A stretch of 64,000 nucleotides of DNA from Marispirochaeta aestuarii (GTDB taxonomy: Bacteria; Spirochaetota; Spirochaetia; JC444; Marispirochaetaceae), in NCBI RefSeq assembly GCF_002087085.1, contig NZ_MWQY01000002.1:1-64000 (forward strand), read 5' to 3'. The position numbers and the translations under genes are program-made. The number at the start of each line of letters is the position of its first letter. Position 1 is the first letter of the stretch. Below are positions 8,190 through 52,530 of this stretch, piece by piece. The notes below the pieces were generated by a model. The model was given only the letters and a program-made list of their open reading frames with translations, was not told where the DNA came from and searched no databases.

Positions 8190-9056
8190 ATGAGTCTAAG
8201 CGCACAGGAAAAATGGGAACTGGAAGAGAAGGCCCTGTCCCTGCGGGAGAAAGTCCTCAGAATGATCAAGGCCTCCGGTTCCGGTCACCTGGGAGGAGCC
8301 CTTTCTGCAACCGAGATACTTACGGCCCTCTACTTTCGTATTATGAGGGTGGATCCCCAACGGCCCGACTGGCCCGAGAGGGACCGTTTCGTCCTCTCCG
8401 CGGGACACAAATGTCTTATCCTCTATGCAGCCCTGGCGGAGAAGGGTTTTCTGCCGGAAAGCTATCTGGATACCTACGGAGACCTTAAGTCCCCCCTGCC
8501 GGGCCACCCCAGCATGGAAAAACAGCCGGGAGTAGAGGCCAATACCGGAGCCCTGGGACACGGACTCTCCATAGCCGGCGGCATGGCCATGGGTCTGCGG
8601 GCCCAGGAGAAAAAGAACCGGGTTTTCGTACTCATGGGGGACGGAGAACAGGCGGAGGGCTCCAACTGGGAGGCCGCAGCGGCAGCCTCCTACCACAAAC
8701 TGGACAATCTGCTGGCCTTTGTCGACCGCAACGGACTCCAGATCGGCGGGAAGACAACCGAAGTAATGAGTTACGAACCTCTGGAAGATCGCTGGTCCGC
8801 CTTCGGCTGGAGCGTTAAAACCATCGACGGCAACAATATCGAACAGGTGGTGGAAGCCATCGAATCGGCACCTTTCGAGGCGGGAAAACCCTCGGTAATC
8901 ATCGCCGATACGGTCAAATCCAAGGGACTCTCTTTCGCCGAAGGAGACGCGGCCTACCACTACTGGAAGGCCGGTGCCGATGAAATGAAAACCGCTGACG
9001 CTGACCTGAAAAAGGCTCGCGAAATTCTGGAAAACGCACGGAAGGGGTTGAAATGA
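8190..9056 (+). CDS. Transketolase, N-terminal half (thiamine-diphosphate subunit), copy 1
   Basis: A 288-residue half transketolase carrying the thiamine-diphosphate-binding domain. The start is the ATG at 8190; the open frame extends upstream into rpiB. Key stretches are ASGSGHLGGALSATEIL, DRFVLSAGHKCLILYA, GALGHGLSIAGGMAMG and the ThDP motif GDGEQAEGSNWEAAAAASYHKLDNL, ending near FVDRNG. It transfers two-carbon units between sugar phosphates once paired with the next gene's product, whose ATG overlaps its stop by four bases. Confidence 0.92.
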   Translation: MSLSAQEKWELEEKALSLREKVLRMIKASGSGHLGGALSATEILTALYFRIMRVDPQRPDWPERDRFVLSAGHKCLILYAALAEKGFLPESYLDTYGDLKSPLPGHPSMEKQPGVEANTGALGHGLSIAGGMAMGLRAQEKKNRVFVLMGDGEQAEGSNWEAAAAASYHKLDNLLAFVDRNGLQIGGKTTEVMSYEPLEDRWSAFGWSVKTIDGNNIEQVVEAIESAPFEAGKPSVIIADTVKSKGLSFAEGDAAYHYWKAGADEMKTADADLKKAREILENARKGLK

Positions 9057-10012
9057 AAACGGTAAGCTGGAACAGAACATTCACCGAAGCAAAGGATCCC
9101 CGCAAGACCTTCGGGGAAGCCCTGACTGACGCGGGAAGCGCTATACCCGAAATAATAGCCCTCTCCACCGACAGCTCCTCAGGTTCCGGAATGGGCCCCT
9201 TCGCCAAAAAGTTCCCGGAGCGGCATTACGAGTTCGGCATCATGGAGCAGGGGGCCATAGGGTATGCCGCGGGGCTTGCATCCACGGGCCTGATCCCTTT
9301 TTACGCTGCCATCGCCCCCTTTGTAACCGCCCGGCCCTACGAGATGTTCCGCAACGACCTGGGTTATATGCAGCAGAATGTCAAGGTTGTGGGACGCTGC
9401 GCAGGTCTCACCTACTCCCACCTGGGTCCGACTCACCATTCCCTGGATGATATCGCCATTATCCGGACCATCCCCGGTGTAACGATCCTGAATCCCGGCG
9501 ACCCGGTAAGCATTCACAAGGCCGTACAGGCGGCGGCCGAGTTCAAGGGACCGGCCTATATCCGCATAGGAAGTCCACCCATGCCCGGCATCTATAATGG
9601 CGATGTTCCCTTCGAGGCGGGCAAGGGTAACGTCCTTATGGACGGGACGGATGTAACGATCATAGCCACCGGTACCATGCTCGCCAATGCCGTCAAGGCC
9701 GCCATGAGCCTGGAATCCGAAGGGGTCAGCGTCTGCCTGATCGACATGCACACGGTAAAGCCCCTGGATACGGAGCTTGTACTGGAGGCGGCTGAACGTA
9801 CCGGACGCATCGTCACCGTGGAAGAACACTATGTGACCGGCGGTCTCGGAAGTGCCGTGGCTGAGCTCTGCTCCGCAAATCGGCCAACCCCGGTCCACAT
9901 GATCGGCGTCAAGGACCAGTACGCCAGCAACGGACCCTACGAGGAGCTCCTGGGACTCTACGGCCTGCAGGCCGGACAGATCGCCGACACGGTCAGAAAT
10001 ATCTTGAAATAA
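9053..10012 (+). CDS. Transketolase, C-terminal half (pyrimidine-binding subunit), copy 1
   Basis: A 319-residue partner of the preceding half, with the pyrimidine-binding and C-terminal transketolase domains. GIMEQGAIGYAAGLASTGLIPFYA holds the conserved cofactor-activating Glu. THHSLDDIAIIRTIPGVTILNPGD is the conserved His segment, and VCLIDMHTVKPLD with EEHYVTGGLGSAVAE forms the last domain. The genes overlap by four bases, as expected for subunits made one-to-one. An intrinsic terminator follows at 10022. Confidence 0.92.
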   Translation: MKTVSWNRTFTEAKDPRKTFGEALTDAGSAIPEIIALSTDSSSGSGMGPFAKKFPERHYEFGIMEQGAIGYAAGLASTGLIPFYAAIAPFVTARPYEMFRNDLGYMQQNVKVVGRCAGLTYSHLGPTHHSLDDIAIIRTIPGVTILNPGDPVSIHKAVQAAAEFKGPAYIRIGSPPMPGIYNGDVPFEAGKGNVLMDGTDVTIIATGTMLANAVKAAMSLESEGVSVCLIDMHTVKPLDTELVLEAAERTGRIVTVEEHYVTGGLGSAVAELCSANRPTPVHMIGVKDQYASNGPYEELLGLYGLQAGQIADTVRNILK

Positions 10013-45683: not shown

Positions 45684-45757
45684 CGGGCTGTAGCGCAGTG
45701 GTTTAGCGTACTTGACTGGGGGTCAAGGGGTCGGCGGTTCAAATCCGCCCAGCCCGA
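45684..45757 (+). tRNA. tRNA-Pro (anticodon GGG)
   Basis: A complete cloverleaf: acceptor CGGGCTG/CAGCCCG, D-arm with AGCGCAGTGGTTTAGC, anticodon stem CTTGA/TCAAG with loop CTGGGGG (anticodon GGG at 45718-45720, reading CCC), and T-arm GGCGG-TTCAAAT-CCGCC. The discriminator base is A and CCA is not encoded. A terminator follows directly. The gene lies at the left edge of the AT-rich island, a common kind of insertion neighbourhood. Confidence 0.95.
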
Positions 45758-45795: not shown

Positions 45796-45940
45796 CGGGC
45801 TTCCGGCGGTCATTCTCGGGATTTTCCCTTCGGGAAAACCCTGCCATGACCTTGGGCTTGCGAATTGCACAGCAATTCGCTGGGCCCAGCCCTCTGGATC
45901 ACTCTTCTGCAGAAAATCCGGGACTTCTTTTTCGGGCTTC
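45795..45940 (+). repeat. Structured repeat element, left copy
   Basis: It begins with TCGGGCTTCCGGCG (45795-45808) and ends at another TCGGGCTTC (45932-45940). Inside are two hairpins: GGGATTTTCCC/GGGAAAACCC (45818-45841) and TGGGC-TT-GCGAATTGC-ACA-GCAATTCGC-TGG-GCCCA (45853-45888). The same layout, with different but still paired stem sequences, is found at 51346-51491 on the other side of the island. It may be a REP/MITE-like element or the footprint of an insertion. Confidence 0.75.
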
Positions 45941-46247: not shown

Positions 46248-47582
46248 CTATTCTAAACCGGAAAAAAGTTTTAGCACGGTAGCCGAAGGATAATTTGATA
46301 GAGAGGCGATGCCATTGACCAATTCAATGGGGACTAGAGCGCTTTCATGTCGATAACTGAGTATTTTGGGGATTGTCGCCATAATCCTATCTACTCCGAT
46401 GAGATCTTCTCGTCTGTTTGGTTTGTTCTCATTATCAAGGTACTGACCAGTCGGTATATTGAGTACAAATAGATGATGAGGGCTCTGCTTGAGAAGTACC
46501 TTTTCACCATAGTTAGTTCTAAATCCATAGGGATACTTGGGATCACGCTTCCGTTGAACCTCTGAATGTATAAACTTATGAGTAAGAGGAGAAAACCTTG
46601 AAGGTGCGCCCTTTTCTAATGGCTCAACAAGATGCGCATAGCCTTTAAAGAAGTCAACGAATTTACCAGTTTTCTCCTGACCACATAGATGAATAGTCAC
46701 TCCAATACTTTTTGCTTTTGAGATAAAATTGCGTAGATTCGGTACAAGCTTTGAGTATTGTCCTCGGAGTGTTAACGGACCATCCTTTAGAAACAGAGTT
46801 TCTTTTAATACATGATGGTTTTTTTGCCAAAGGTATCTGATAGCTGTAAATAACATCATAGTTTCATGAATCATCATATATGCAGAAGCGAGGGTTTCAG
46901 ATGCAGAATCTTCTGACATTTCCATATGAAGACCTATGATATCAGTCAAAAAGATTACAGATTGACATTCAGGGCATTCTATCTGATCAGTATCATATTT
47001 CATTCCAGGTAATTCTGCATAACACTCGGGACACTCAAATGCTGGGGAGTTACTCTTTGTACCTTCCTCCCATTTCTGATAGACCACCCATTTGAGGGTT
47101 TTATATGGCTCGCCATCTAATTGGGGATCCCTAAAGGAGTCGTATATGAGCTTGCGCATCCCATACAACCAATCAGTGCCGTGAATCCGTATATTCTTAA
47201 CAGGAAAGACAGTTGCATGATGCTGAGCACTCTCAGACATCAGTTTTCTTAATTGGTTTGGATGAGGATAATCGGGATCGATTTGTTCGATTTTAGTCGG
47301 ATCTATCCTCATTAATGCTGTTTTAACAAATGACACTTCCCGTTTAGGATTACCTGAAGATGCAAGGTGCTGCAATGACCCATCTGAAGCGAAGATGTAT
47401 TTTAAAGGTCGCGCAAATTTATCAACCTCGAACCAATCGATATCGGGTGATGTAATACTCGACGCATCTGGGTGCTCAAACTGTTCAACCACTTGATTGA
47501 CAAACTCACTGTTCAAAACATCTAGATGCCCAAGTTTCGAAGCAGATTCGCCACTTAATCTCTGTCCTGCTTGATATGGCAC
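46248..47582 (-). CDS. NurA-like nuclease with internal zinc ribbon
   Basis: A 444-residue protein that I assign to the NurA nuclease fold from motif order: FASDGSL (Asp67, the first metal-binding Asp in NurA), LMRIDP, LFLKDGPLTLRG (Asp267, second Asp-Gly motif), VTIHLCGQEKTGKFVDFF and HHLFVLNIPTGQ. CPEC...CPEC (Cys184, 187, 203, 206) forms an inserted zinc ribbon not typical of archaeal NurA. NurA proteins are nucleases that work with a HerA pump. It starts with GTG after AGGAGG, nine bases past the HerA-like gene. The similarity is distant, so the fold call is moderate, but the HerA neighbour supports it strongly. Confidence 0.68.
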   Translation of the reverse strand: MPYQAGQRLSGESASKLGHLDVLNSEFVNQVVEQFEHPDASSITSPDIDWFEVDKFARPLKYIFASDGSLQHLASSGNPKREVSFVKTALMRIDPTKIEQIDPDYPHPNQLRKLMSESAQHHATVFPVKNIRIHGTDWLYGMRKLIYDSFRDPQLDGEPYKTLKWVVYQKWEEGTKSNSPAFECPECYAELPGMKYDTDQIECPECQSVIFLTDIIGLHMEMSEDSASETLASAYMMIHETMMLFTAIRYLWQKNHHVLKETLFLKDGPLTLRGQYSKLVPNLRNFISKAKSIGVTIHLCGQEKTGKFVDFFKGYAHLVEPLEKGAPSRFSPLTHKFIHSEVQRKRDPKYPYGFRTNYGEKVLLKQSPHHLFVLNIPTGQYLDNENKPNRREDLIGVDRIMATIPKILSYRHESALVPIELVNGIASLSNYPSATVLKLFSGLE

Positions 47583-47591
47583 TTTTTCCTC

Positions 47592-49568
47592 CTATTCAAA
47601 CTTATATGCTTGAATCGGAACTACAAAGCGATGGCTAAAGGTGAGCATCCGCATGTATCCAGGAGTTTTTGAGCGCATAATCTCGCTTCCAAGCCCTTCA
47701 TATGCAATCTGTACTCTCTCAAGCGACCGTACCTCGTCTTGTGACGATAGATGACCAACAAAGAAATTTTCGGTCTGAGCTAGTAATTCCTGTGATATGG
47801 TCGATGGCGATTGTGTAGAATACACCATTCCTATGTGAAACTTAGCACCTTCCTTTGCAAAGCGAGAATATACATCCGTAAATTCCTTGTTGTCTCGAGG
47901 AAAGAGATTATGCGCTTCCTCAAAATACAGTTGAACGAAATGCTCCGATAGGTTATTTGAGATAAACTTCTTCTCTTGGTTATTGAACACAGCTCGAGAT
48001 AGCATATCGGAGAAATAGCGTCGCACTTCATCGGTTGCATTTCCTAAATCCAGGATTACAGTTTGACCAGCGTCGATTAAATCCAAAATTTCTTTTTGGA
48101 AATCACCGGCGGACATAGAATGATAGATTATGAATGGACGAAGAATAACGGTTCCGGAACGACCTTGCTTTGGAAAAAGGAACTCAAGCATAGCAACATC
48201 ATCAATATCGAAGTAATCTTTTCCTCCAGACGATTTTAATTCTTTATCACCTGGGTTCTCCTTCCGAAAGCTATCAATTACTCTAAGTTCGTTAAGTAAC
48301 TCACTGAGGTTTTTAGGAGTATTGGGTACCTCTTGATCTGCATTACTATAGGCCTTTTCGCGCAATGTCTTTTTAAAGTGCGGATCATACCCAAATGGGG
48401 CCTCACCTACTTTTCCGCCCAAACGTGACAGACGTGATTCATCAGCTTTGAATCCGGCACTATGCAAAATTGCCCAATATATCTGTATTTTCCGTATCGA
48501 ACGTCTTTTTGGGCTTTGCTCCATATGTGGGATATCTTCAACATTAGGCAACTCGACGCTCATGAAGCTCTTTATATAGTCAGAAGTCTTATTTGCCTGA
48601 GTCAGAAAAGACTTTAGAATCGAAAGACCAGAATCAGGCTGTTCATAAAAATTAAGCTTTAACTGCTTTGCATAATCAGCCCCCTCTCGAGGATTCAACG
48701 CATAAACCTGACAACGTTCCGAGTACTTACTTCTAATTGAAATATTCCCATCCTGCGGATTATCATTGGCATATTCACCGTTTATATCAAATATGAGCTG
48801 TCCGACATCACGTTTCTCATCGGTAGCTTTAATCACGGCTTCTGCCAACAACTTAACAACATTTGATTTACCTAACCGAGTCTTACCAAACATCGCCGTT
48901 CGAAAACCTTGAAAATCTCTGACTGATATTTGGGCACTAACGTTGTGAGGACTAACATTGGCAAATGGAAGTCGGCACTCAGTCATTCTCAAATCACCAA
49001 TACTTATCTGACGTTCTTTTCTAACGGTCCCATTTACAATAAGGTCCAACAACTTTTGATCCGGAGAATAGATGCGGTATCGATGAGCACTAACGACCGT
49101 GTTAACATCTCCTGAAAAAGCCAGCTCCTCGGAATTTTCAATATCTGGATAAAACATACCGAGTACAGTAGTGTTAAGAGCTCCCCATTGGAGTTCCGAC
49201 TGGGTCCATCGGTCAATTTCGGGCATAGATTTCTTATGTAGCTCAAAATAGGTTTGTTGTACTTGTTGGCTTAAAGGCGTCGGGGCCACATCTTCCACTC
49301 GCAGAAGTGTGAAATGGGGAGGTATTCCATCAAGTTTATCGGGTAGCATTACCAAGAATGATCCTTTTGGAAGTCCGCCGACCGCTCGTTTATACGGATC
49401 TGAAGTGATTATCCTTGCAGTATCGTATGACATCTCCATAGCATAACCGACAAATCGCATCTCATTGTAATGCTCAGACTCTTCAGCCTTCTTCTCAGTT
49501 TCCAAGAAATCATAGACCATTCTGAGAGGATTTTCTTGAAATTCCGCCTTCTGAATAAAGTTAAGCAT
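47592..49568 (-). CDS. HerA-like hexameric DNA-pumping ATPase
   Basis: A 658-residue FtsK/HerA superfamily ATPase. Walker A is GKTRLGKS (228-235). LIFDINGEY (258-266) is the HerA strand after it. Walker B is LYFEEAHN (547-554) with Glu-Glu, and the sensor/arginine region is RFAKEGAKFHIGMVYSTQSPSTI (569-591). The ~200-residue N-terminal part precedes the motor, where HerA proteins carry a HAS-barrel. HerA rings translocate along double-stranded DNA and feed a partner nuclease. The ATG shares its first base with the last base of the methylase stop (TAATG), so the two are translationally coupled. Confidence 0.88.
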   Translation of the reverse strand: MLNFIQKAEFQENPLRMVYDFLETEKKAEESEHYNEMRFVGYAMEMSYDTARIITSDPYKRAVGGLPKGSFLVMLPDKLDGIPPHFTLLRVEDVAPTPLSQQVQQTYFELHKKSMPEIDRWTQSELQWGALNTTVLGMFYPDIENSEELAFSGDVNTVVSAHRYRIYSPDQKLLDLIVNGTVRKERQISIGDLRMTECRLPFANVSPHNVSAQISVRDFQGFRTAMFGKTRLGKSNVVKLLAEAVIKATDEKRDVGQLIFDINGEYANDNPQDGNISIRSKYSERCQVYALNPREGADYAKQLKLNFYEQPDSGLSILKSFLTQANKTSDYIKSFMSVELPNVEDIPHMEQSPKRRSIRKIQIYWAILHSAGFKADESRLSRLGGKVGEAPFGYDPHFKKTLREKAYSNADQEVPNTPKNLSELLNELRVIDSFRKENPGDKELKSSGGKDYFDIDDVAMLEFLFPKQGRSGTVILRPFIIYHSMSAGDFQKEILDLIDAGQTVILDLGNATDEVRRYFSDMLSRAVFNNQEKKFISNNLSEHFVQLYFEEAHNLFPRDNKEFTDVYSRFAKEGAKFHIGMVYSTQSPSTISQELLAQTENFFVGHLSSQDEVRSLERVQIAYEGLGSEIMRSKTPGYMRMLTFSHRFVVPIQAYKFE

Positions 49569-50416
49569 TATAATTTATCCTCCAAAGCAAGATTGTGTAT
49601 AATGACTTCTTCATAACGGCCTCGATGATTAGACTTAGCTGCTATAGTACTTGGTCGAGTTACAGTCTCGATACTAAAAAATGAACTATAGAGGTCGACA
49701 ACTTGAGGATGATTCGCATTTGTGGCAACAACAACTGCCCCTCGCTTAGCAGCACTAATCAGTGCTATTGAGAGTCGAACTTGATCCTCCCAGGAAAAAA
49801 GCACCTCGTTATATTTTAAAAAGCCATTATTATTGTGACTGACAGTATACGGAGGATCAGCAAAGATGAAGTCCCCCTTCCCTGCTTTATGGATAGGCTC
49901 TTCAAAATCGCAAACTTTTAGTTCAGCATTAGCTAAGAGTTCTGCCCACAAGACAAAATCATCACTAGGAAGAACCACCGCAGTCTTAGTTCCCATCGGA
50001 ACATTGAACCTACCCTGACGGTTAACTCGATAGATTCCATTAAAGCAGGTTCGATTCAGATAAAGCATGCGAACAGCTTTATCCATTTTTGCTCCTGGGC
50101 TCTGCCCTCGATACTGATAATAGAAAAGTCTAGAGTGTTGGCTATGTAAAACCTCAAGGCGCTTTTGTAGTTCATGGGGATGTTGGCGTATCTGAAAATA
50201 TAGATTAATCAGCTCTTCATTCGTATCACTAAGTAAAGCCCTCTTCGGTTCAACCGCCGCGAATGCTGCTCCCCCCCCAAGAAAGGGCTCGATATATTTT
50301 CCAGAGAAACGGTATCTGAAAAACTCAGGATGGGATTGAATTAGCCAACGTTTACCACCGGCCCATTTAAGAAAAGGTTGTAATTGTTTTTTTTGTGAAG
50401 AGACAATCTTATTCAA
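49568..50416 (-). CDS. Dam-type DNA adenine-N6 methyltransferase
   Basis: A 282-residue class-alpha (D12 family) methyltransferase that transfers a methyl group from S-adenosylmethionine to adenine in DNA. PFLKWAGGKRWLI is the family start motif, YIEPFLGGGAAFAA is motif I, and FIFADPPYTVSHNNNG is the catalytic DPPY motif IV. LNRTCFNGIYRVNRQGRFNVPMG is the recognition-domain block shared with Dam and DpnM, suggesting a short site such as GATC, though this is not proven. It is the first intact gene of the island operon and probably marks self DNA for the HerA/NurA pair. Confidence 0.93.
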   Translation of the reverse strand: MNKIVSSQKKQLQPFLKWAGGKRWLIQSHPEFFRYRFSGKYIEPFLGGGAAFAAVEPKRALLSDTNEELINLYFQIRQHPHELQKRLEVLHSQHSRLFYYQYRGQSPGAKMDKAVRMLYLNRTCFNGIYRVNRQGRFNVPMGTKTAVVLPSDDFVLWAELLANAELKVCDFEEPIHKAGKGDFIFADPPYTVSHNNNGFLKYNEVLFSWEDQVRLSIALISAAKRGAVVVATNANHPQVVDLYSSFFSIETVTRPSTIAAKSNHRGRYEEVIIHNLALEDKL

Positions 50417-50429
50417 ACACTGATCCTCA

Positions 50430-50936
50430 TTATCTCGGCTCTGTTTCTTTAACTGGACTCATCTTATAGCGCTTATCATTAATCCTCGCAGAGGTAAATG
50501 AGTATTCTATTTTCATCTGAACAATTGGATCAGAGAGCATGTTATCACTATTCACTTCGACTATGAGAAAAGCCCCATCTTTCTTATGAATAGAGAAGTC
50601 AGAATAATAACTTCTTAGATCATGCCTCTCAGGAACTATATAGCTTATCTTGAAATTAGATTGTCTAATAATCAGCATCCTGGTATACCTCACTTTTTCA
50701 ACATCAGCGTGGCTAAAGTGATGTTTTGAAGTATTAGTCCAGCACTGGCTATGAGTCGAAGCATTATTACTCCATATGACAACTTTACTTTTTTGCTGCT
50801 GAATATTCTGGTTCACATTTTTCTTCCCTACCCCTATCTTTCCATGTACAATAAAAAGCCAGAGCTCGGAGTGGTAAGACATTCTAAGTTTTGTCTGATA
50901 CTTACTACAGACCTTGAATCCAGAATCAGTTTTCAC
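50430..50936 (-). pseudogene. Possible remnant of a restriction-type nuclease/helicase C-terminus
   Basis: A 168-residue open frame with no full-length family match that I can recognise. Its second half, SYYSDFSIHKKDGAFLIVEVNSDNMLSDPIVQMKIEYS, follows the spacing of the PD-(D/E)XK tail of type III/ResIII-like helicases (DF...iVEvK...K), but the expected Lys is Asn (EVN). SKVVIWSNNAS upstream resembles the vxWwxRN segment before that tail. It may be the 3' scrap of a restriction gene, or a small active or inactive protein. It lies 13 bases upstream of the methylase and on the same strand. No good ribosome-binding site shows at its first ATG. Confidence 0.4.
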
Positions 50937-51345: not shown

Positions 51346-51491
51346 GGGCTTCCGGCGCTTGTTCTCGGTGCCCGCTCTCGCGGTCACCTGCCACAAGCTT
51401 GGGCTTGCAAACCGCTTCGCGGTTCGCTGGGCCCAGCACTCCAAACCACACTTCATCAAAAAGAATAGGGCTTTTTATCGGGCTTCCGGCG
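51346..51491 (+). repeat. Structured repeat element, right copy
   Basis: It begins with GGGCTTCCGGCG (51346-51357) and ends with TCGGGCTTCCGGCG (51478-51491). The first hairpin is GGTGCCCGC/GCGGTCACC. The second is TGGGC-TT-GCAAACCGC-TTC-GCGGTTCGC-TGG-GCCCA (51400-51435), the same length (36 bases) and internal loop as the left copy but with a different, still paired stem. It lies right after the stop of the ABC permease gene and could also affect that operon's 3' end. Confidence 0.75.
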
Positions 51492-51492
51492 A

Positions 51493-52530
51493 TTATTCGC
51501 TGCGCTCCTTGTCCAATGCCTTCTGCATGAGCACTGCGCCCAGGATCAGTATGCCTTTGATCAGGTCATTTACAAAGGCCGGGACACTGAAGGCGGAGAG
51601 GATCGCGTCGATGGCATAGAGAATCACGGCGCCGAAGAAGCTGCCCTGAATATGGCCCCTGCCGCCGGACATGGCGATTCCCCCGATGGCCACGGCGGCG
51701 ATTACATCCAGCTCGAACATCTTTCCGGCGGTGGATACATCCACGGATCCGAAGCGGGTTATGTAGAGGAACCCGGCAATACCGGTAAGGACTCCCGTCA
51801 GGGTGAATATGGCGACTTTTACCAACCGTACATTGATTCCCGTCAGCCGGGCGGCCCGCTCATTGGATCCCACGGCATATACGTACCGTCCGAATTTCGT
51901 CTTGGTCATCAGGAACCAGACAGCTATACTTACCAGGATAAACAATATGACCAGATACGGTACCGGCCCGAGTTTTCCGTAACCGATGGGACGGAGCAGC
52001 TTGAAGTAGGCATCGTTATCCACTATCAGCGGTCCTCCGTGGCCGAACTGGATCGTAATGGACCGGTATCCCACAAGGGTGGCCAGGGTTACGATAAAAG
52101 CGGCGACCCTCGCGACACCTATAAAAAATCCGTTGAAAAGGCCAAGAACAAATCCCATGAAAACGGCAGCAATCAGGGAAAGAAAAATACTGGTGGTGGA
52201 ATTAAAAACGACAACCCCGATGGATGCCGACAGGGCAAGCATCGACCCGACGGAGAGGTCAATATTACCGGAAAGGATCACCATGGACATCCCCAGAGCG
52301 ATTATTCCGATAAAGACCGAGGACTTCAGAAGGTTCATCAGGCTTGCCACCGTCAGAAACTGGTCACTGGCGATACGTCCGATTATAAGCAGCAGAATAA
52401 GGGACAATATGTAGTTGTGATCGATCAGGAGTTTTTTGAAAAAGGCGATCAGTTTTTCCTTTACCCCTGCACTCTCAGTCGCCTGAATAATTCCGGTTCC
52501 TCCGGTTGTGCCGTCTTTCTTACTGTTCAT
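51493..52530 (-). CDS. Sugar ABC transporter permease (RbsC-like)
   Basis: A 345-residue inner-membrane permease of the CUT2 (ribose/galactose/autoinducer-2) class. A hydrophilic N-terminal ~30 residues is followed by 8-10 hydrophobic segments. Family landmarks are ALGMSMVILSGNIDLSVGSMLALSA, FNGFFIGVARVAAFIVTLATL, FGRYVYAVGSNERAARLTGINV (the ATPase contact loop) and VIAAVAIGGIAMSGGRGHIQGSFFGA. It is last in the operon, three bases after the ATPase gene. Its stop codon abuts the right island repeat. Confidence 0.94.
   Translation of the reverse strand: MNSKKDGTTGGTGIIQATESAGVKEKLIAFFKKLLIDHNYILSLILLLIIGRIASDQFLTVASLMNLLKSSVFIGIIALGMSMVILSGNIDLSVGSMLALSASIGVVVFNSTTSIFLSLIAAVFMGFVLGLFNGFFIGVARVAAFIVTLATLVGYRSITIQFGHGGPLIVDNDAYFKLLRPIGYGKLGPVPYLVILFILVSIAVWFLMTKTKFGRYVYAVGSNERAARLTGINVRLVKVAIFTLTGVLTGIAGFLYITRFGSVDVSTAGKMFELDVIAAVAIGGIAMSGGRGHIQGSFFGAVILYAIDAILSAFSVPAFVNDLIKGILILGAVLMQKALDKERSE

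Follow-up and report, generated by a model that had tools for sequence, protein, structure and literature searches.

The locus described here lies in a 64,000-nucleotide stretch of the Marispirochaeta aestuarii genome (contig NZ_MWQY01000002.1, positions 1 to 64,000; hereafter the window) and carries three tightly coupled minus-strand genes, the methylase coming first, then HerA and then NurA (Table 1). The open reading frame listing and the sequence agree with the coordinates and order given in the original prediction, and with the close coupling that it described: within the TAATG at 49568 the Dam stop and the HerA start have one base in common, and the gap between HerA and NurA is 9 bases.

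Table 1. Features of the methylase–HerA–NurA locus and its immediate surroundings (window positions)
Feature	Position	Strand	Evidence
tRNA-Pro(ggg), left edge of the variable region	45684..45757	+	ARAGORN; synteny with two congeners
Intergenic repeat with GGGCTTCCGGCG and internal palindrome	45797-45915, 51346-51462, 51480-51505		
Predicted NurA/TdpB-fold nuclease, 444 aa, GTG start	46248..47582	-	AF2 model; match to TdpB 8wfd
Zinc ribbon inserted in NurA, C184-C206, CPEC...CPEC	46965..47033	-	Sequence
HerA/TdpA-type hexameric DNA-translocase ATPase, 658 aa	47592..49568	-	Pfam DUF87; TdpA 8wet
Walker A GKTRLGKS (Lys234) of HerA	48864..48887	-	Alignment (residues invariant)
Dam/DpnM-type D12 N6-adenine methylase, 282 aa, TTG start	49568..50416	-	Pfam, NCBIfam and DpnM/EcoDam matches
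DPPY catalytic motif, methylase residues 187-190	49847..49858	-	Sequence
Decayed restriction-gene remnant, 5' of Dam	50454..50820	-	Match to L025 gene

The genes had been placed in an AT-rich, repeat-bounded setting beside a tRNA. The base composition (GC 38–42% in the island versus about 55% for the surrounding genome region) and the tRNA are as described; the tRNA-Pro gene and its left flank are syntenic in two congeners, the DNA downstream of it is different in each, and HerA is absent from both of the congeners of the host that we examined. The bounding repeats do not stand: other members of their family are scattered over the genome, so that the flanking copies provide no evidence of attachment sites, and we rejected that reading of them. 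Copies related to the GGGCTTCCGGCG repeat occur elsewhere in the genome (C2 225 kb, C3, C23 and C37) and in a congener. Counts of GATC in the window were uninformative (343 observed versus 365 expected).

The first gene encodes a Dam-type adenine methylase, as had been predicted, with matches to Pfam MethyltransfD12 (3e-41) and NCBIfam dam (3e-60), the closest characterized enzyme being DpnM (2dpm, 1e-49), followed by EcoDam (6e-26). The D12 domain, the DPPY motif (at its originally assigned place) and the SAM-binding motif are all present, and alignments to EcoDam and DpnM show that FLKWAGGK, the NG.xR segment and FNVPxG are kept, segments in which the GATC contacts of EcoDam sit. Since these contact residues seem to be retained, GATC is the likely, predicted motif of the enzyme, whose predicted role is the protection of host DNA. 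Methylase genes are few per genome, with 4 D12 matches in the 4.2 Mb of the host genome.

The second protein is likewise the HerA-like pump that was expected, scoring above the cut-off against Pfam DUF87/HerA (2e-11) and matching the PADLOC HerA model (4e-22), with Lys234 in its anticipated place. Against the PDB, the HerA family profile finds TdpA (8wet, 5e-38) as its best match, the next family following at 7e-19. The Walker A residues, EEAH, R569 and Q586 are invariant across an alignment of nine HerA homologues, and the Walker A, Walker B, arginine finger and sensor elements of HerA/FtsK translocases can all be recognized in the window protein.

For the 444-residue protein, no significant match was obtained in Pfam, PADLOC, NCBIfam or PHROGs, and a PDB search with the NurA profile returned zinc-ribbon noise only and no usable match. 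Distant homologues are named NurA by PGAP, and one of them reaches the Pfam NurA cut-off. An AlphaFold (AF2) model (mb5c6069373c2) was built from a 20-row alignment and has a pLDDT of 87.2 and a pTM of 0.87; single-sequence AlphaFold gave a pLDDT of 31 only. One row of that alignment, from locus L055, is mostly not NurA, since L055 is an in-frame NurA–methylase fusion. By Foldseek and VIA-align the model is nearest to TdpB (8wfd; Z 20.9, 309/358 residues, 10% identity), then to the NurA proteins of Sulfolobus (Z 14.7), Thermococcus, Pyrococcus and Deinococcus (Z 11.0); overall, NurA/TdpB chains score Z 10–21, and the next fold, Endonuclease V, scores Z 8.7. Asp67 is the same in all 20 aligned rows and Asp267 in at least 90% of them, and the model places these active-site aspartates in what appears to be an RNase H-like NurA fold. 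The zinc ribbon is retained by most homologues and missing in L026, L049 and L051. The model thus gives, with high confidence, a NurA-fold nuclease with an inserted zinc ribbon; structure prediction, which had been proposed as the check on this assignment, thus found the NurA/TdpB fold, and Asp67 and CPEC...CPEC lie where they had been assigned.

We show that the linkage of the three genes is conserved. The profile used to collect homologues was built from the nuclease only, so that the count of neighbouring methylases is unbiased by the search. The nuclease family occurs in 8/393 genomes of the window's phylum and in 15/395 genomes of a second phylum, where one genome (G415) gave a weak partial match and was left out of the locus count, and it was further found on plasmids, viral contigs and isolated Vibrio phages. 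After near-duplicates had been collapsed, 25 independent loci with readable flanks were available (L015 stops at a contig edge), and a DNA methylase immediately adjoins HerA–NurA in 23 of them. The adjacent methylases fall into five classes, namely three of D12 type (the Dam class, in the window, L002, L025, L056, L057 and L058; a second in L012 and L045; a third in L013/L014, L047, L048 and L065/L066) and two of N4/N6 type (one upstream of the pair, in L043 and L044; the other mostly downstream, in L008, L011, L026, L049, L050/L051, L052, L053/L054 and L055), with in addition a C5 methylase at a contig edge in L027. In L046 (6441-15271), one of the two remaining loci, HerA–NurA stands directly 5' of HsdR, HsdM and an HsdS-like ORF, as if it were part of a Type I restriction–modification (R-M) operon. 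The one group without a neighbouring methylase consists of three near-identical cyanobacterial plasmids (L007, L009 and L010), which carry an HTH gene, HerA and NurA; no annotated methylase was found across most of the sequence of two of these plasmids, and their HerA–NurA pairs perhaps rely on methylation by the host chromosome. Mapped on the HerA+NurA tree, methylase class requires six changes for seven states, which is the minimum (shuffled mean 14.8), and distances between D12 methylases correlate with those between HerA–NurA pairs (r 0.93; none of 5000 permutations as high). The methylase is a co-inherited partner of HerA–NurA that has been swapped a few times over deep history, and methylase and nuclease are encoded as a conserved unit, as in R-M systems; the fixed partnership originally proposed thus extends to unrelated genomes, plasmids and temperate phages. 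Of the outcomes named beforehand as refuting the original interpretation, neither the lack of a NurA-like fold nor the lack of conserved linkage was observed, and the interpretation is supported.

The cassette is also mobile. A block of 4,531 bp with 99.5% identity, comprising only the three genes and short flanks, is shared by two genera (L013 and L014); the L058 cassette has a CI-type repressor on one side and an integrase on the other, the L056 cassette is on a contig with a portal gene, and in two Vibrio cyclitrophicus temperate phages (L065/L066), which offer a copy amenable to experiment, HerA–NurA and a D12 methylase occupy the interval from integrase to excisionase. Among its neighbours are defence genes: AbiTii in L009, PDC-S02 and HsdR in L002, and, in L043 (9361-12489) and L044 (9972-13100), PtuB and a Septu-type PtuA whose N-terminus is HNH-like, both after NurA. 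In L043, the copy to which PADLOC was applied, PtuA overlaps NurA by 4 bases, and it is possible that these two loci represent a composite methylase–HerA–NurA–Septu system. Restriction genes are found as well. In L026 (1182-8161) two N4/N6 methylases, of which one has HEAT repeats, come after HerA–NurA together with a CfrBI-type endonuclease; in L027 and L051 a C5 methylase accompanies a putative restriction endonuclease (REase); and in L025 a Res-like gene lies directly upstream of dam and overlaps it. The C-terminal endonuclease region of this last gene matches the DNA 5' of Dam in the window (41% identity over 98 aa, E 8e-21), where a second frame with stops is also present. This stretch, which did not figure in the original prediction, is the decayed C-terminal endonuclease part of a restriction helicase–nuclease gene, and the ancestral operon of the window was probably Res–Dam–HerA–NurA; given such a remnant, Dam may formerly have worked with the lost enzyme as well.

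Several copies are broken. In L008 an IS element interrupts HerA; in the L013 (10464-12536)/L014 pair the HerA of G111 ends prematurely with a nonsense codon at position 42, which its twin in G126 does not have; and one of the Vibrio phage isolates carries a frameshift in HerA. L054 is without HerA and without the NurA N-terminus. In L055 (G715, 8547-9947) NurA residues 1-106 run in frame straight into the methylase from its residue 16 onward, a deletion that drops the nuclease body and leaves HerA and the methylase, and on finding this fusion we rejected the listing of L055 as a methylase-less locus. In all five clearly broken loci it is HerA or NurA that is hit and the methylase always reads through, which is what a restriction system predicts. 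We dropped this asymmetry as proof, because gene lengths alone would produce it about 0.3 of the time and it is therefore not significant.

The closest characterized relative of the cassette is TdpAB. TdpABC (PDB 8wet and 8wfd) likewise combines a pump, a nuclease and a DNA-marking enzyme, TdpA and TdpB being the best solved matches of both effectors, and a TdpA-like pump and a TdpB-like nuclease are encoded together in the window. Phosphorothioate on self DNA stops both translocation and cutting by TdpAB. The marker in the window is instead a Dam-type base methylase, the nuclease has only about 10% identity to TdpB and an inserted zinc ribbon, and HerA has 658 rather than 586 residues; no gene for TdpC, the phosphorothioate writer, is present at the locus, whose only neighbours are the D12 methylase and the restriction-gene remnant. 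Since the partner is a D12 methylase and TdpC is absent from the locus, we do not file the cassette as Tdp. The gene set had not been recognized as a named system, a statement that needs to be narrowed, as the set belongs to a type already known and differs from it in having a methylase in the marking role; the exact methylase–HerA–NurA set may already have been described somewhere. The HerA–NurA end-resection complexes of Sulfolobus, Pyrococcus, Thermococcus and Deinococcus share the same two folds and active-site logic (Z 11.0–14.7); they belong to a repair setting and have no methylase, whereas the window cassette is mobile and defence-linked. The Thermococcus complex cuts both strands of double-stranded DNA and may destroy foreign DNA (PMC12977600). 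In Thermus thermophilus, the ICETh1 element has TdtA, a member of the HerA/FtsK family, on one transcript with a Type IIG restriction enzyme, a NurA-like nuclease and an N4/N6 methylase. DNA donation depends on TdtA, the nuclease and the restriction enzyme, and losing the methylase has only a minor effect (PMC5365140, PMC7767461). By its published description (PMC5365140) this operon has the same kinds of genes as the window cassette plus the restriction enzyme, but it differs in its role in donation, its membrane-located pump, its gene order and its class of methylase. The methylase itself is closest to that of DpnII/Dam-type R-M systems (DpnM, E 1e-49), although the window is without a DpnII-type endonuclease and the effector is a pump–nuclease pair. 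HerA–DUF4297 and SIR2–HerA defences likewise join a HerA hexamer to a partner effector; their effectors are other enzymes, and they are not known to include a methylase. HerA–DUF4297 is a HerA–nuclease defence (PMC11291478).

The cassette is real and conserved and most likely a restriction-like defence, and we think it probable that it constitutes a compact, mobile R-M-like system built on a TdpAB-type engine and gated by methylation. This is supported by TdpAB as the best match of both effectors, the 23/25 linkage, the co-divergence of methylase and effectors, the defence neighbours and the mobility; on the other side stand the methylase-free cyanobacterial plasmids and the lost restriction gene, which may have been the original partner of Dam. 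Dam, with GATC as its predicted motif, would methylate the host DNA. HerA hexamers would assemble with the NurA-fold nuclease into a single machine through which double-stranded DNA is threaded and which cleaves its two strands, as the biochemistry of TdpAB and of HerA–NurA suggests, and modification on the threaded DNA would block loading, translocation or cutting, the candidate readers of methylation being the zinc ribbon and the HerA entry domain. Because TdpAB is blocked by modification and the Thermococcus HerA–NurA cuts double-stranded DNA, we suggest that the pump–nuclease would degrade unmethylated phage or plasmid DNA and spare methylated host DNA.

A different account makes HerA–NurA an accessory shredder that is blind to methylation: the first cut would come from another restriction enzyme, which has its own cognate methylase, and HerA–NurA would then degrade from the ends; in the window that enzyme would have decayed, and the cassette would act on phage DNA ends or be losing its function. 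The restriction genes adjoining L025 (Res-like), L026 (CfrBI), L046 (HsdRMS), L027 and L051 (putative REase), the remnant in the window and the action of HerA–NurA on DNA ends in vitro (PMC12977600, PMC9960219) all suit this account, which we nevertheless consider rather unlikely, considering that most loci, including phage/prophage copies and the 4.5-kb transferred unit, consist of methylase, HerA and NurA only and that methylase class tracks the HerA–NurA phylogeny. Near-universal adjacency to several methylase classes that co-diverge with HerA–NurA also makes it very unlikely that phage DNA ends or proteins set off the defence irrespective of methylation and that Dam is retained for reasons such as gene control or the shielding of the element from other restriction systems, even though the cyanobacterial copies have no adjoining methylase and HerA–DUF4297 and SIR2–HerA offer a precedent. 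The strongest fact contrary to a restriction role is the use of the ICETh1 gene set in DNA donation, after which the window genes might be read as a TdtA-like transfer device whose HerA/FtsK pump and NurA prepare donor DNA, the methylase being ancillary. The open reading frame listing identified no integrase or transfer gene in the 5-kb window island, and the copies in temperate phages lie between integrase, repressor or excisionase; such a device seems to us scarcely probable at all.

Within the methylation-gated reading, a bolder proposal, which we put forward tentatively and with some doubt, is that HerA–NurA reads methylation and restricts DNA by itself: it would be a ring-shaped translocase and nuclease without sequence specificity, and base methylation on the DNA inside the ring would control its movement or cutting. 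Unrelated methylases of at least five classes would have been fitted to this engine, the phosphorothioate-gated TdpAB being one branch of a general modification-gated pump. The PADLOC 2023 models contain no match to the nuclease, and defence surveys relying on them would therefore overlook the system. If the preferred, methylation-gated restriction reading is true, the TdpAB-type pump–nuclease would not be confined to phosphorothioate, and evolution would have joined it more than once to ordinary base methylases. The outcome would be a small restriction system without a site-specific endonuclease, which raises the question of how a ring that threads any DNA senses a methyl group.
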